Assembly: GCA_007751255.1 (NCBI GenBank)
Contig: CP036296.1
Coordinates: 3,038,001-3,102,000 of the forward strand
DNA: 64,000 bases
Source: Engelhardtia mirabilis
Lineage (GTDB): Bacteria > Planctomycetota > UBA1135 > GCA-002686595
Direction of reading: 5' to 3'
The notes beneath the pieces are model-generated. The model searched no databases. It was not told the origin of the DNA and saw nothing but the letters and a program-made list of their open reading frames with translations. Shown here piece by piece: positions 6,502 to 60,854 of this stretch. Within the stretch, counting starts at the first letter, position 1, and the number at the start of each line of letters is the position of its first letter. The translations under genes were made by a program, and so were the position numbers.

Positions 6502-7024
6502 GATCCAACCGGGGTCGACCGTCGTCGATCGCAGACTTGAGTGGACCGGAACCTATCTGACTGAGCGCTGGGGGTGGCGGGCTCGCGTTCCGCGGGTTCG
6601 CCCCCCCCCCCTAAAGTGTTCGCCAAGCTCGCCCTTGGAGCCGCGATCTTGGGGACTGGCGCGAGGTGCGCGGGGTCCGCCGCTGGGCCAGTCGAACCAG
6701 GTGCAGGGCGATCGAGCCCGGCCAAGGCCCTGGATCCGAGGTCCTTGGCCCGCATCGGTCACCAGGATCCGCACCCAGCACGCCCAAACGGCGGCCCGCG
6801 GCCGCCACTCGGCCGCCACTCGGCCGCAGACGGCAGCTCGCGAACCGATCCGTCGTCGGCGGGGTTTGTAGCCCCGCCTGCGCGGGCTCGGTCCACAAGG
6901 CACCGTCGCTGACGAGTTGGAGGCACGAGCCCCGGGGAGGTGACGACGAATTCCTGATCCAGGACTCTAGGATGAGCGGCGTGCCGCGCTCCTCTCGATC
7001 GCATCACCTCCCCATCCACGATCC
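6502..7024. other. 523-base intergenic region with poly-C tract and a repeat end
   Basis: No gene is supported here; all open frames have random-looking Arg/Pro/Ser-rich translations. The region holds an uninterrupted run of C at about 6600-6611, a short GGCCGCCACTC direct repeat near 6800-6825, and at 6933-6970 a solitary end of the inverted-repeat element described separately. The GATAGGTTCC stretch read leftward near 6555 could be part of the BLUF promoter. Confidence 0.5.
6933..6970 (+). repeat. Solitary end of the 161-bp inverted-repeat element
   Basis: The stretch CGAATTCCTGATCCAGGA and its flanks match the right terminus of the element at 54953-55113, including the closing CTAG at 6967-6970. 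No matching left end was found within about 300 bases, although CCTGGATCCGAGG near 6729-6741 is faintly similar. It is likely a decayed or deleted copy. Its CTAGGAT end coincides with a possible -10 hexamer for the following small gene. Confidence 0.6.
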
Positions 7025-53921: not shown

Positions 53922-54953
53922 ATGAGCAAAGAACCCGATCCCAAGGAAGTCGCGGAGCAAACCGAGGACCCGTCCGAGCGCAAGCCCGGCCGCCTCTCCC
54001 GCCTGCGTTTCTCGAAGAAGAAGGACATGCCGGGCGGGCTGTGGCTGAAGTGCGAGAACTGTAGCTCCCTGATCTACCGCAAGGAGCTCGAAGCCGCCGG
54101 GCGGGTGTGCCCCTCCTGCAGCTTCCACTTCACCCTGCCTGGGCGGCAGCGCGTCCAGTCGCTCTTGGATCCGGGCTCCTGGGAAGAGGTCTTCGCCGAC
54201 ATCACCGGCCTCGACCGCCTGTCGTTCACGGACAAGATCCCCTACTCCGAGAAGCTGGCCAAGACCGCCGAGCGGCTTGGCCAGAACGAGGCCCTGATCT
54301 GTGGGCGCGGCAGCATCGAGGGTCGCTCGGTCATCCTGGCCGTGCTCGACTTCTCCTTCATGGGCGGGTCCATGGGCGAGGTCGTGGGCGAAAAGCTGGC
54401 CCTGGCCAGTGACCTGGCCCGCGTCGAGGGCCGGCCCCTGGTGATCTTCACCAGCTCCGGCGGCGCACGCATGCACGAGGGCGCCCTGTCCCTGATGCAG
54501 ATGGCGAAGACCTGCTCGGCCCTGCAGAGCCTCTCCGACGCAGGCGGCATGTCGATCTGCGTCATGACCCACCCGACCACCGGCGGCGTCACGGCCTCCT
54601 TCGCCAGCGTCTGCGACCTGGTCCTGGCCGAGCCCGGCGCCCTGATCGGCTTCGCCGGCCCGCGCGTGATCGCGGCCACGCTCAAGCAGGAGCTGCCCCC
54701 CGGCTTCCAGCGCGCGGAATTCCTGATCAAGAAGGGCATGCTCGACGGCCTCGTCTCGCGTTCCGAGCTGCGCCCGATGCTCGGTCGCCTGCTCGACTAC
54801 GCCAAGGGCTCCCACGTGGGCGGCGACGTCGAGGACGACCTGGCGGCAGACGAGGTGCCGAACCGCTTGAGCGGAGGCCGTACCGATTCGCGCACGCCCA
54901 GCGAGCGCGGCAAGGTTCGTCTCGACGTCCCCTCGGCCGAAAGCTCGAACTAG
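53922..54953 (+). CDS. accD: Acetyl-CoA carboxylase carboxyltransferase subunit beta
   Basis: 343 residues. The zinc ribbon uses Cys44, Cys47, Cys63 and Cys66 (CENC ... CPSC). The carboxyltransferase core has SFMGGSMGEVVGEKL, the oxyanion segment FTSSGGARMHEGALSLMQMA and VMTHPTTGGVTASFA, ending GFAGPRVIAATLKQELP. It joins AccA to transfer CO2 from biotin to acetyl-CoA; accA is not in the window. The N-terminus (1-35) is charged and the C-terminus (~300-343) is a disordered tail. The TAG stop is shared with the end of a 161-bp inverted-repeat element: the TA is the presumed target and the G is the element's first base. Confidence 0.96.
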   Translation: MSKEPDPKEVAEQTEDPSERKPGRLSRLRFSKKKDMPGGLWLKCENCSSLIYRKELEAAGRVCPSCSFHFTLPGRQRVQSLLDPGSWEEVFADITGLDRLSFTDKIPYSEKLAKTAERLGQNEALICGRGSIEGRSVILAVLDFSFMGGSMGEVVGEKLALASDLARVEGRPLVIFTSSGGARMHEGALSLMQMAKTCSALQSLSDAGGMSICVMTHPTTGGVTASFASVCDLVLAEPGALIGFAGPRVIAATLKQELPPGFQRAEFLIKKGMLDGLVSRSELRPMLGRLLDYAKGSHVGGDVEDDLAADEVPNRLSGGRTDSRTPSERGKVRLDVPSAESSN

Positions 54954-55113
54954 CGTCCTGGATCAGAAACTCGGCGTCACTTCCCGGGCTCCGATCGCCG
55001 CTGGCGTCGCCAGCGCCTCCTCCGAGTATCGCAGCGGATACGCGTCGTCGGCGCGCCTAGCCAGCATCGATCGGACTTCCGGGCAGTGACGCCGAATTCC
55101 TGATCCAGGACAC
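54953..55113. mobile_element. MITE-like 161-bp inverted-repeat element, copy 1
   Basis: Starts GCGTCCTGGATCAGAAACTC and ends with its inverted match GAATTCCTGATCCAGGACAC, giving imperfect terminal repeats of about 26-28 bases. The interior is nearly identical to the copy at 60643-60803; I count seven differences over 161 bases. Inside are further hairpins, GCTGGCGTCGCCAGC and GTATCGCAGCGGATAC, and TCCGATCG/CGATCGGA pairing that extends the outer stem. It has no coding capacity. It is flanked by TA on the left (inside CTAG) and CA on the right. Both copies sit between convergent genes. Confidence 0.85.
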
Positions 55114-55147
55114 CAGACGCCCGATCCGCGGGTGATCGTCACCCCGG

Positions 55148-58701: not shown

Positions 58702-59582
58702 GGGGCGGGCGATCGTCGGTGTGGATCGCGGCCCTGGCCCTGGTGGTCACCGGCTTCGGTTGTTTGAACGCGCTGCTGCCCATCGACGGAGCGGCTCGAC
58801 TGTTGTGGTCGGCGGCCCTCGGCGATGCCCCGGCGAGCGGCGCGGCCAGCCTGGCCGCCGCGACCTGGCGCACGGTGCTCTGCCTGGTGGCGGCGGGCGC
58901 GGTGGTCGGGATGGCAGAGGGCGGCTCGACCGACGCCCGGCGGCGCTGGCCGAGCCTCTCGATCGTGGCCGCGAGCCTCGCGGCCAGTGCGGCGGCGGCG
59001 CTGGTGCTCGAGCGCGGCGAGGTCTGGCCACCGACCGCTAGCGTCTTGCGATCAGTGACCGCGGCCCTCGCGGCGATGGCGGCTGCGGCCCTCTCGCTTC
59101 GATGGACCCGCACTCGGCCCGCCCTGGCCCTGTGCTCGGCGTTGCTGCTGGCCGCTGCCCTGTGGGGCTGGCTGGGGTTCGTCGCCGCAGGGGCGCCTGA
59201 GGCCCAGGCCTCGCGCGGGCGCTTTCTGCTCGGCGGGTACTGGGCGCCATCGGTGACCGACACGGCCCTGGCCCTCTTGGGCTGGGCAGTCACCTGTCTG
59301 CCAGGCGGCGCTCGCCGATGGGCGCCCTTGGGAATGGGTCTCGTGGCGGCGTCGGTGGGTCCCTTGCCGCTGGTCGGCGCCCTGGCCCTGGTCCCAGGCG
59401 CGGCCGCCGGCCCGCTCGCGCGGGGACTGTGGGGGGGATCGGCAGCTCTGCTCGCGGCAACGGTGTCGGCCTTGATCGCGCCCTCTGCCTCGGTTCCGGC
59501 GGGTGCCCTAACCCTCCTGGTCGGGTCGCTTTATCTCGCGGGGCGCCTCGTCTGGAGCCGCGCGCGTCCGGGATCGGTCTGA
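58680..59582 (+). CDS. Multi-pass membrane protein of unknown function
   Basis: 300 residues, Ala/Leu/Gly-rich, with about eight to nine predicted helices: 14-33, 62-80, 92-112, 126-142, 148-170, 193-208, 216-236, 248-268 and 272-290. I recognise no family. The ATG at 58680 lies inside the end of the OsmC gene (22-base overlap in another frame), so translation may be coupled; the next ATG downstream is much later. There are no conserved polar motifs inside the helices that would suggest a transporter. High GC third positions and the clear alternation of helices and Arg-rich loops support a real gene. Confidence 0.65.
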   Translation: MGRTRSLRGGRSSVWIAALALVVTGFGCLNALLPIDGAARLLWSAALGDAPASGAASLAAATWRTVLCLVAAGAVVGMAEGGSTDARRRWPSLSIVAASLAASAAAALVLERGEVWPPTASVLRSVTAALAAMAAAALSLRWTRTRPALALCSALLLAAALWGWLGFVAAGAPEAQASRGRFLLGGYWAPSVTDTALALLGWAVTCLPGGARRWAPLGMGLVAASVGPLPLVGALALVPGAAAGPLARGLWGGSAALLAATVSALIAPSASVPAGALTLLVGSLYLAGRLVWSRARPGSV

Positions 59583-59734
59583 CCTGGGTATCCTGCCCCG
59601 CTCGCTCGACCGGAGTGCGACTCCGAGCGACACCGCAGAGACCGTCCCCTGTCCTCCCGTTCCCCCTCCGACGCCGGTCTCCGACCCCCGTCGCACCGCG
59701 CCTTCGACCCGCAGCGCAACGCGACACGCCCCCG

Positions 59735-60643
59735 ATGAGTGAAGCGATCTGCGTGCTCGGTGCGCTGCACATGGACCTCACCATCGAGGTCGAACACCTT
59801 CCGTCCGTCGGCGAGACCGAGATCGGCAAGGGCCTCGAGGTCCATCCCGGCGGAAAGGGAGCGACCCAAGCGGTGGCCGCGGCGCGCCTCGGGGCCAGCG
59901 TCAGTCTGGTCGGTGCGGTCGGCGACGACGGTTGGGGAGCGGATTTGCGCTCGGCGCTCTTGGCCGAGGGCGTGAACCTCTCGGGGGTCGTCTCCTCCAG
60001 CGCTGCCGTGACTGGCGTGGCCCTGCGCGCTCGGCACGCCTCGGGCGAGAGCGCGACGGTGATCGGTCCGGGTGCCAACCGCATGGTGGACGTGGCGGTG
60101 ATCGAGGCCGCGCGGGAGGCCTTCGCCCACGCCAAGGTCTTCCTGTGTCAGCTCGAGATCGGCGAAGACGCCCTGTCGGCCGCGGTCGAGTTGGCGCGGG
60201 CGTCGGGCGCCCTGGTGGTGCTGAACGCTGCGCCCGCGCGCGAGTTGTCGCGCGAGTTCCTGGCCAAGATCGACGTGATCGTGGCCAACCGGCGCGAGGG
60301 CGCTCGGCTGGCACGGGTCGAGAAGGACGAGTGTTCGGACTCCGGGCTGATGCGCCGCATCGCGGCCCTGGGACCGTCCAAGGTGGTGCTGACCCGGGGC
60401 AAGCGCGGCGCGATGTTCTTCGACGGCGAGCGCACCTTCGAGCAAGCGGGCTTCCCCGCCGAGCGGCTCGACTCCACCGCGGCCTCCGACGCCTTCTGCG
60501 GCGCCCTGGCAGTGGCCCTGGCCGAGGAACAGCGCTGGGACCAGGCCCTGCGCTTCGCCTGCGCGGCCTCGGCCCTGTCGGCGGAAGTGCAGGGGTCCTT
60601 CCCCAGCCTGCCGACGCGGGACGTGCTCGAGCCGCGACTCTAG
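59735..60643 (+). CDS. PfkB-family sugar kinase (ribokinase-like)
   Basis: 302 residues from ATG at 59735. Ribokinase landmarks: LGALHMDLTIEVEHLPSVGE, the substrate loop HPGGKGATQAVAAARLG (38-54), VGAVGDDGWG, and VVLNAAPARE. The C-terminal PfkB signature normally reads DTTGAGDAF; here it is DSTAASDAFCGA (about 246-257), which keeps the catalytic Asp252 but alters the GAG anion hole. VIVANRREGARL replaces the usual NExE with NRREG, again slightly off. It likely phosphorylates ribose or a related sugar, with reduced certainty. The TAG stop is formed with the end of the second inverted-repeat element. Confidence 0.85.
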   Translation: MSEAICVLGALHMDLTIEVEHLPSVGETEIGKGLEVHPGGKGATQAVAAARLGASVSLVGAVGDDGWGADLRSALLAEGVNLSGVVSSSAAVTGVALRARHASGESATVIGPGANRMVDVAVIEAAREAFAHAKVFLCQLEIGEDALSAAVELARASGALVVLNAAPARELSREFLAKIDVIVANRREGARLARVEKDECSDSGLMRRIAALGPSKVVLTRGKRGAMFFDGERTFEQAGFPAERLDSTAASDAFCGALAVALAEEQRWDQALRFACAASALSAEVQGSFPSLPTRDVLEPRL

Positions 60644-60803
60644 TGTCCTGGATCCGAAATTCGGCGTCACTTCCCGGGCTCCGATCGCCGCTGGCGTCGC
60701 CAGCGCCTCCTCCGAGTATCGCAGCGGATACGCGTCGTCGGCGCGCCTAGCCAGCATCGATCGGACCTCCGGGAAGTGACGCCGAATTTCGGATCCAGGA
60801 CAC
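60643..60803. mobile_element. MITE-like 161-bp inverted-repeat element, copy 2
   Basis: The ends are a perfect 38-base inverted repeat when flanking CTAG is included (60640-60677 with 60769-60806). The element proper begins GTGTCCTGGATCCGAAATTC and ends with its exact complement. TA flanks both sides (60641-60642 and 60804-60805) within CTAG, as expected for an IS630/Tc1-type TA target duplication. The interior carries the same hairpins as copy 1, and removing the element with one TA restores a CTC-TAG stop for the kinase gene. No transposase gene is present here. Confidence 0.88.
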
Positions 60804-60854
60804 TAGCTCGCTTCGGCCGCCGGTGTCCGCGGCCAGCGCCGGCCCACACTTCGG

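Follow-up and report, generated by a model that had tools for sequence, protein, structure and literature searches.

The element analysed here is a MITE of roughly 159 bp that inserts at CTAG and is palindromic along nearly its entire length. It is one of a scattered set of palindromic MITEs in Planctomycetota that have a hairpin core and a common geometry, but not their ends, in common. We consider it probable that these elements form a lineage that retains a cis-acting core while its ends are exchanged between transposase families; both the exchange and the function of the core are inferred from the comparisons described below.

Two copies of the element lie in the window, i.e. the whole stretch of 64,000 nucleotides from Engelhardtia mirabilis (contig CP036296.1, positions 3,038,001 to 3,102,000) that was analysed. 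An earlier note on this DNA had placed a hairpin element at 54953-55113 and 60643-60803, and these positions were borne out, with 161 bases each; the identity, given as about 96%, amounts to 95.7% (7 differences). Including the flanking tetramers, both on the forward strand, copy 1 spans 54950..55116 (body 54954-55112, 159 bp), flanked by CTAG (left) and CCAG (right), and copy 2 spans 60640..60806 (body 60644-60802, 159 bp), with CTAG on both sides, as the note had described. The perfect 38-base inverted repeat attributed to the element is present in copy 2, counted from the CTAG at 60640 and 60806, while copy 1 retains just 2 perfect bases; its ends have changed, and its arms pair nevertheless. 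The conserved hairpin core occupies 55000..55066 in copy 1 and 60690..60756 in copy 2 (forward strand, 78.5 bits each with the covariance model R1). Each copy has an internal CTAG in its sequence, at 55057..55060 and 60747..60750, respectively, and the site equivalent to the former takes a nested insertion elsewhere in the same genome. A degraded single end of the same element, adjoining a CTAG, was found at 6927..6970 by BLAST within the window and from the sequence. As single-stranded DNA, the two strands of copy 2 are predicted to fold with -71.2 and -77.9 kcal/mol (z -13.9 and -14.4), which none of 200 shuffles equalled on either strand.

The whole-genome search that the earlier note had called for, carried out on the 6.95-Mb genome (two contigs), reveals that the element is not limited to two copies. 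An interior 25-mer, with up to 3 mismatches allowed, is found 73 times, in forward orientation in 35 cases and in reverse in 38 (none for the reversed control), and an 18-mer from the inverted repeat with up to 2 mismatches has 152 matches, compared to 1 for the control, which is well beyond chance. In the surroundings of all 73 copies, which were taken for analysis, both ends could be resolved in 68, with CTAG/CTAG flanks in 47 and a body of exactly 159 bp in 58. The element is thus short, non-coding, multi-copy and of fixed boundaries, with terminal inverted repeats throughout the genome. Per site, the mean departure from the consensus is 1.0-3.3% across the four segments of the arms, compared to 0.65% over the 32 bases at the centre (67 copies, with six of the 73 left out as chimeric or truncated), and this low divergence indicates that the family has spread recently. 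Direct evidence of mobility is provided by a nested copy at about C1:1666866-1667188, where one MITE sits inside the internal CTAG of another; when the insert and one CTAG are removed, the outer copy agrees with the consensus at 164 of 167 positions. The nested insertion can be set against the intact site as a filled and empty pair, and the flanking tetramers match as expected of a target-site duplication. The 73 copies, their common ends, the CTAG target and the self-insertion support the MITE family that the note had proposed.

A pure, coreless palindrome of some 110 bp, bounded by the same ends, is located near C1:1666233-1666347, beside the complete nested pair (locus L046, C1:1659000-1672000), and shorter coreless forms occur at L044 and L045. 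We rejected these three as empty sites, as they have the appearance of internal deletions; they look like derivatives of template switching or internal deletion. At consensus positions 16 and 18, some copies have variants that are matched by the pairing base at the mirror positions (C with G, G with C), which gives the impression that the sequence of one arm was transferred to the other. CTAG is scarce in 732 kb of this genome, where trinucleotides predict 865 sites and 433 are observed; MITEs contain 177 of the latter.

Beyond this genome, it is the centre of the element that is found again. In a BLAST search of relatives, 11 of 41 genomes (including the one studied here) gave matches, mainly to the middle of the element alone. 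A pattern derived from the middle recovered at least 81 stretches in genome contigs belonging to Planctomycetota by title, the sole exception being the isolate Bpl_4, titled "bacterium". This middle is a hairpin core of 66 nt, in which the stems covary and certain mismatches are conserved. The joint fold of 30 cores has 20 pairs, 13 of which show changes on both sides, and a covariation score of 0.265, compared to 0.088 for shuffled and at most 0.051 for slid alignments. For 33 further matches from 28 fetched loci, five of them from genomes of the E. mirabilis family, the score is 0.496 vs 0.120 shuffled, and eight positions in two mismatch steps keep the same letters in 31-33 of the 33 sequences, whereas the apical stem varies freely, its changes being paired. 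As the model had guided the fitting of alignment A2, these covariation and conservation figures lean towards it. On the purine strand the mismatch steps are two tandem G.A steps (GACGA facing GAGGA). In one element of genome G019 (L100/L245) both steps are paired, and therefore they are not indispensable. It must be noted that covariation of inverted repeats may also arise by template switching at the level of DNA, and is no proof of selection on the folded strand.

With the covariance model, the core was detected in 41 of 392 Planctomycetota genomes, representing 26 families, at E<=1e-5. This threshold was adopted because a chance match with an E of 2.4e-4 was encountered within a coding gene from a different phylum; strict filters and E<=0.001 would give 55 of the 392 genomes, and the 14 weaker ones were dropped. 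The distribution is patchy: among the genomes listed for the family of E. mirabilis, 5 of 22 have the core, and in most genomes of the 392-genome sample it was not found. A GTT filter removed nine sequences, seven of them apparent chance matches and two (L165 and L235) probable true copies. In L443 and L445, both from genome G405, the apical loop is longer than in seven other core copies examined in that genome.

Presence outside Planctomycetota was examined in plasmid and viral collections. In viral contigs, the strict core pattern has no match, and a looser one has seven loci, which we rejected as cores: they look coding-like by eye, have no inverted arms and are not matched by the covariance model, whose only match in these loci lies elsewhere in L295 and is weak (18.8 bits, E 0.013). 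A third pattern has at least 120 viral loci, and the 22 of these to which the model was applied gave no match. In the same scan, which also took in five loci of the E. mirabilis genome and the window, the model found both window copies and a chance-level match in L191 (E 0.92). BLAST of the element against the plasmid collection produced short weak matches at most, or none. In five plasmid records of other phyla, picked because BLAST had touched them, the model made two weak matches (29.5 and 21.6 bits), both in the P. aeruginosa plasmid NZ_CP131792.1, and the better of them (29.5 bits, E 2.4e-4) was dismissed as chance, being within the annotated gene quiP. Similar palindromes may also occur in Proteobacteria.

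The arms behave differently from the core. In 116 pairs of elements from different end classes, the identity is 0.87 for the core (0.61 after shuffling), 0.63 for the inner arm (0.60) and 0.55 for the ends (0.54); in other words, the arms are unalignable between end classes. Nonetheless, each of the 19 elements compared, the family described here among them, has 62-65 nt between end and core on either side and a total length of 155-164 bp, which suggests that the geometry of the hairpin outweighs the sequence of its arms. Among the 28 further matches, 19 (three of them from the E. mirabilis family) have inverted ends 46-59 nt outside the model, a figure that may include flanking bases and that is counted from a model starting 17 nt before the TCCTCC used for the 62-65 nt; six of the remainder have no inverted ends in this range and three have inner ones only.

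By their ends, the elements divide into IS630-like and IS1182-like classes at CTAG sites and a GAG/GGG class whose target duplications are 3-bp TNA repeats. CTAG flanks, with some one-sided changes, are seen in the TG and CAG classes. In the GAG/GGG class, identical TNA 3-mers (e.g. TTA/TTA or TAA/TAA) flank 13 of 17 elements, and in six of these 13 the neighbouring bases differ, which argues for a repeat of 3 bp rather than 5 bp. Presumably, the TNA-class elements resemble those of the IS1031 type. Elements of the CTAG and TNA classes reside together in four genomes (ND5_Bin_60, Baikal-deep-G170, Bpl_4 and N075bin59); S-RSF-IL-06 also has both end classes, but its sole GAG element is flanked by TAA/TAG. 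The link between the CAG class and IS1182 comes from one locus in G009, partial or diverged and below the NCBIfam cut-offs, in which an IS1182-like element has an end with 17 of 20 positions in common with the CAG class of the same genome. For the GAG/GGG class, no transposase with matching ends was found when DUF4096 was sought in 12 genomes.

We propose that the element is a non-autonomous DDE-type transposon, inserted at CTAG most likely with a 4-bp duplication, whose core would be a cis-acting hairpin module needed for multiplication or tolerance of the element. The core may have passed from one transposase family to another through the exchange of arms, probably helped by the insertion of CTAG-targeting elements at each other's ends, as well as by the ability of palindromes to rewrite one arm from the other. 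Alternatively, gradual drift combined with palindrome correction may account for the arm turnover. It is tempting, if only as a tentative idea, to regard the 66-nt core (with its purine strand GACGA..GAGGA, two tandem G.A steps and a variable covarying tip) as a selfish module indifferent to the transposase, which would persist by taking on, at a fixed arm length, the ends of any DDE transposon that happens to be active, and which would switch between IS630-like, IS1182-like and TNA-duplicating families across Planctomycetota.

A simpler scenario would be an ordinary IS630 MITE family, in which the core is common through ancestry or recent horizontal spread and the arms have drifted. The ends of several relatives suit one IS630-like pattern, the copies in the E. 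mirabilis genome are young, and a TA duplication suits some of them. However, the core is present in 26 families while the arms are at the level of shuffled identity between classes, and the change from CTAG to a 3-bp TNA duplication is unexplained by the drift of one IS630 MITE. We regard this scenario as unlikely.

The length of the target-site duplication also bears on the identity of the mover. IS630 elements are known to duplicate TA only, and the earlier note had proposed the same for this element. In that case, the element itself would include the inner bases of its flanking tetramers. Four copies have an altered inner target base (CTAC/CTAC, GTAG/GTAG, CTAA/CTAA and CCAC/CTAC), and each of them has an identical base on the opposite side, which fits a 4-bp duplication and disfavours that of TA. 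On the other hand, three of the 68 copies have the outer base changed on one side only (CTAG/CTAA, GTAG/CTAA and TTAG/CTAG) and would suit a TA duplication without any mutation, and two copies in OFTM220 likewise have an unmatched outer base. One-sided changes are common at the T and A positions (16 at the four of them), and therefore later mutation can explain the three outer-base copies. We favour the 4-bp duplication over TA, although not as a final verdict. The duplicated tetramers, mostly CTAG but also CTAA, CTAC and GTAG, are of the type seen in the IS5 group (MITEPsy1-like), not the 2-bp TA duplication by which an IS630-derived MITE would be recognized.

The most likely mover is a resident IS630. 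The genome has seven strong matches and one weak match to DDE_3, and the gene that was compared with NCBIfam proved to be an IS630 transposase (267 bits against a cut-off of 100). Six copies of the IS630 element are 1204 bp long, differ from one another by 0-6 bases and each adjoin a MITE at a common CTAG, whichever of the two arrived first; the seventh has a variant end and no adjoining MITE. The adjacency in six of seven cases has a binomial p of 6e-7 relative to the estimated supply of CTAG (MITEs occupying about 7% of the sites, as extrapolated from 732 kb). The MITE and the IS630 have in common the CTAG target and the end pattern TG...TG..TCA.A..TTCG, and their ends have 12 of 20 positions in common. 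Among 497 control CTAG flanks, from which any similar to MITE or IS630 ends had been removed, 1 attains this agreement for one IS end and 2 attain it for the other. In the relative G001, a fragment of an IS630 gene (97.4 bits, just below the cut-off of 100) ends at TGTCCTGAGTCA beside a CTAG, close to the MITE end TGTCCTGGATCA. Thus CTAG use, end similarity and adjacency all speak for the connection with IS630 that the earlier note had suggested, while the counterpart it had hoped for, an autonomous element or transposase gene with the MITE's own ends, was not seen among the matches listed (at least 122 end matches, up to about C1:5.28 Mb). Judging from this association, mobilisation in trans by the resident IS630 is likely; the family may be moved by its transposase or by that of a lost relative whose ends were of the same type. 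The MITE family of the earlier note is borne out, its connection with IS630 is probably correct, and its TA duplication probably is not. A DDE_3 gene in L298 (genome G067), in an element of 1473 bp bounded by perfect 26-base ends CTAGTGCAACAAACGAAAAGTTCTGG, probably represents another CTAG-targeting IS630. Genome G405 (one contig, 89% complete) has 14 core matches at E<=0.1, yet no DDE_3 transposase.

An IS5-type transposase, rather than IS630, could account for the 4-bp duplications CTAG, CTAA, CTAC and GTAG, and the IS5-like MITEPsy1 is known to duplicate CTAG or YTAA (PMC3189936). We find this improbable: when DDE_Tnp_1 and DUF4096 were sought in the E. mirabilis genome, no IS5 partner for the MITE appeared, the sole DDE_Tnp_1 match being a single-copy IS701-like gene with the ends CTAGCCTGGGG and CTAGGCTGGGG and DUF4096 having no match, and the MITE ends look like those of IS630.

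The context of the insertions allows for an assessment of the structural RNA role that the earlier note had entertained. In the window, the TAG stop of an accD-like gene (acetyl-CoA carboxylase carboxyltransferase-like; 53922..54953, forward strand) is formed by the left CTAG of copy 1, and that of a PfkB-family sugar kinase gene (59318..60643, forward strand; open frame as listed, with a putative start) by the left CTAG of copy 2. Overall, 48 of 111 element ends fall on the TAG stop of an open frame that is 150 codons or longer, compared to 109 of 440 control ends (p 0.0002), with the same direction at thresholds of 60 and 100 codons. This enrichment, together with the strong hairpin and the covarying stems, could indicate that the core is a structured RNA or an element of mRNA 3' ends (a terminator or stabiliser) kept by the host, its mobility being secondary. 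However, the enrichment is also expected from CTAG targeting combined with selection against insertion inside genes, and the coincidence is best read as such targeting and tolerance. Moreover, the preference for one orientation relative to the upstream gene is not significant (30 of 61 left vs 18 of 50 right, p 0.18), a search of the window against Rfam gave no match over the curated threshold, and the search of the phylum sample did not find the core in most genomes. The conserved, covarying secondary structure thus stands, but since no significant orientation preference was observed, a strand-specific RNA role is unsupported and a role at the level of DNA is more likely; a host-kept RNA seems to us quite improbable. 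Our best guess is that the core acts in cis on DNA, either in movement or in keeping the long palindrome tolerable.

Single-strand mobility of the HUH/REP type, with a Y1 transposase recognizing the folded core and the arms free to vary, has in its favour conserved hairpin mismatches reminiscent of REP sequences and arms that vary while palindromy and length are retained, but is very improbable, and for this genome largely refuted, given that Y1_Tnp (PF01797) has no match in it (5 of 14 control genomes have one), that replication-strand bias is absent (40 vs 33, p 0.48, as judged by the skew of sampled regions only), and that the ends look like DDE transposon ends and produce target duplications.

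The exchangeable-end lineage that we prefer can be compared with several known systems, as far as the consulted parts of the respective papers describe them. Bacterial MITEs are 50-500 bp long, mobilised only in trans, and carry terminal inverted repeats and target duplications, and one of them, QMITE2, has a strong predicted hairpin (PMC10969869); size, repeats, duplication and hairpin are all shared by our element, while that part of the paper does not mention a core retained throughout a phylum on ends that are unrelated. MITEPsy1 of Pseudomonas syringae (100 nt, listed as "IS5?", with 18-nt ends, nearly identical to the ends of ISPsy2, and with demonstrated transposition) is likewise a short MITE with a 4-nt duplication at CTAG or YTAA; unlike in our element, no core common to unrelated ends is described in the portion consulted (PMC3189936). 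REP sequences and REPINs (GTAG/CGTC repeats) are palindromic and multi-copy with conserved non-paired motifs, as here, but the portion consulted gives REPs as 20-40 bp, with GTAG REPs tied to RAYT (Y1) transposases (PMC3733652), while elements of our type are 155-164 bp long, have DDE-like ends and occur in a genome without a Y1 match. From IS630/Tc1-mariner elements, with which it has the CTAG target and, for the resident IS630, the end pattern in common, our MITE differs in the 4-bp duplication that we favour. In the literature searched by title and the opening of the abstract, no published description of the hairpin core was found.

MITEs are usually read as deletion remnants of one insertion sequence and are defined by their ends. 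Here it is the centre that is conserved and the ends that seem exchangeable, so that families filed apart by their ends would form one lineage. This raises the question which protein or process recognizes the core. If our interpretation is true, the covariance model can find such elements throughout the whole phylum, and bacteria would have a class of parasites that switches its helper enzyme.
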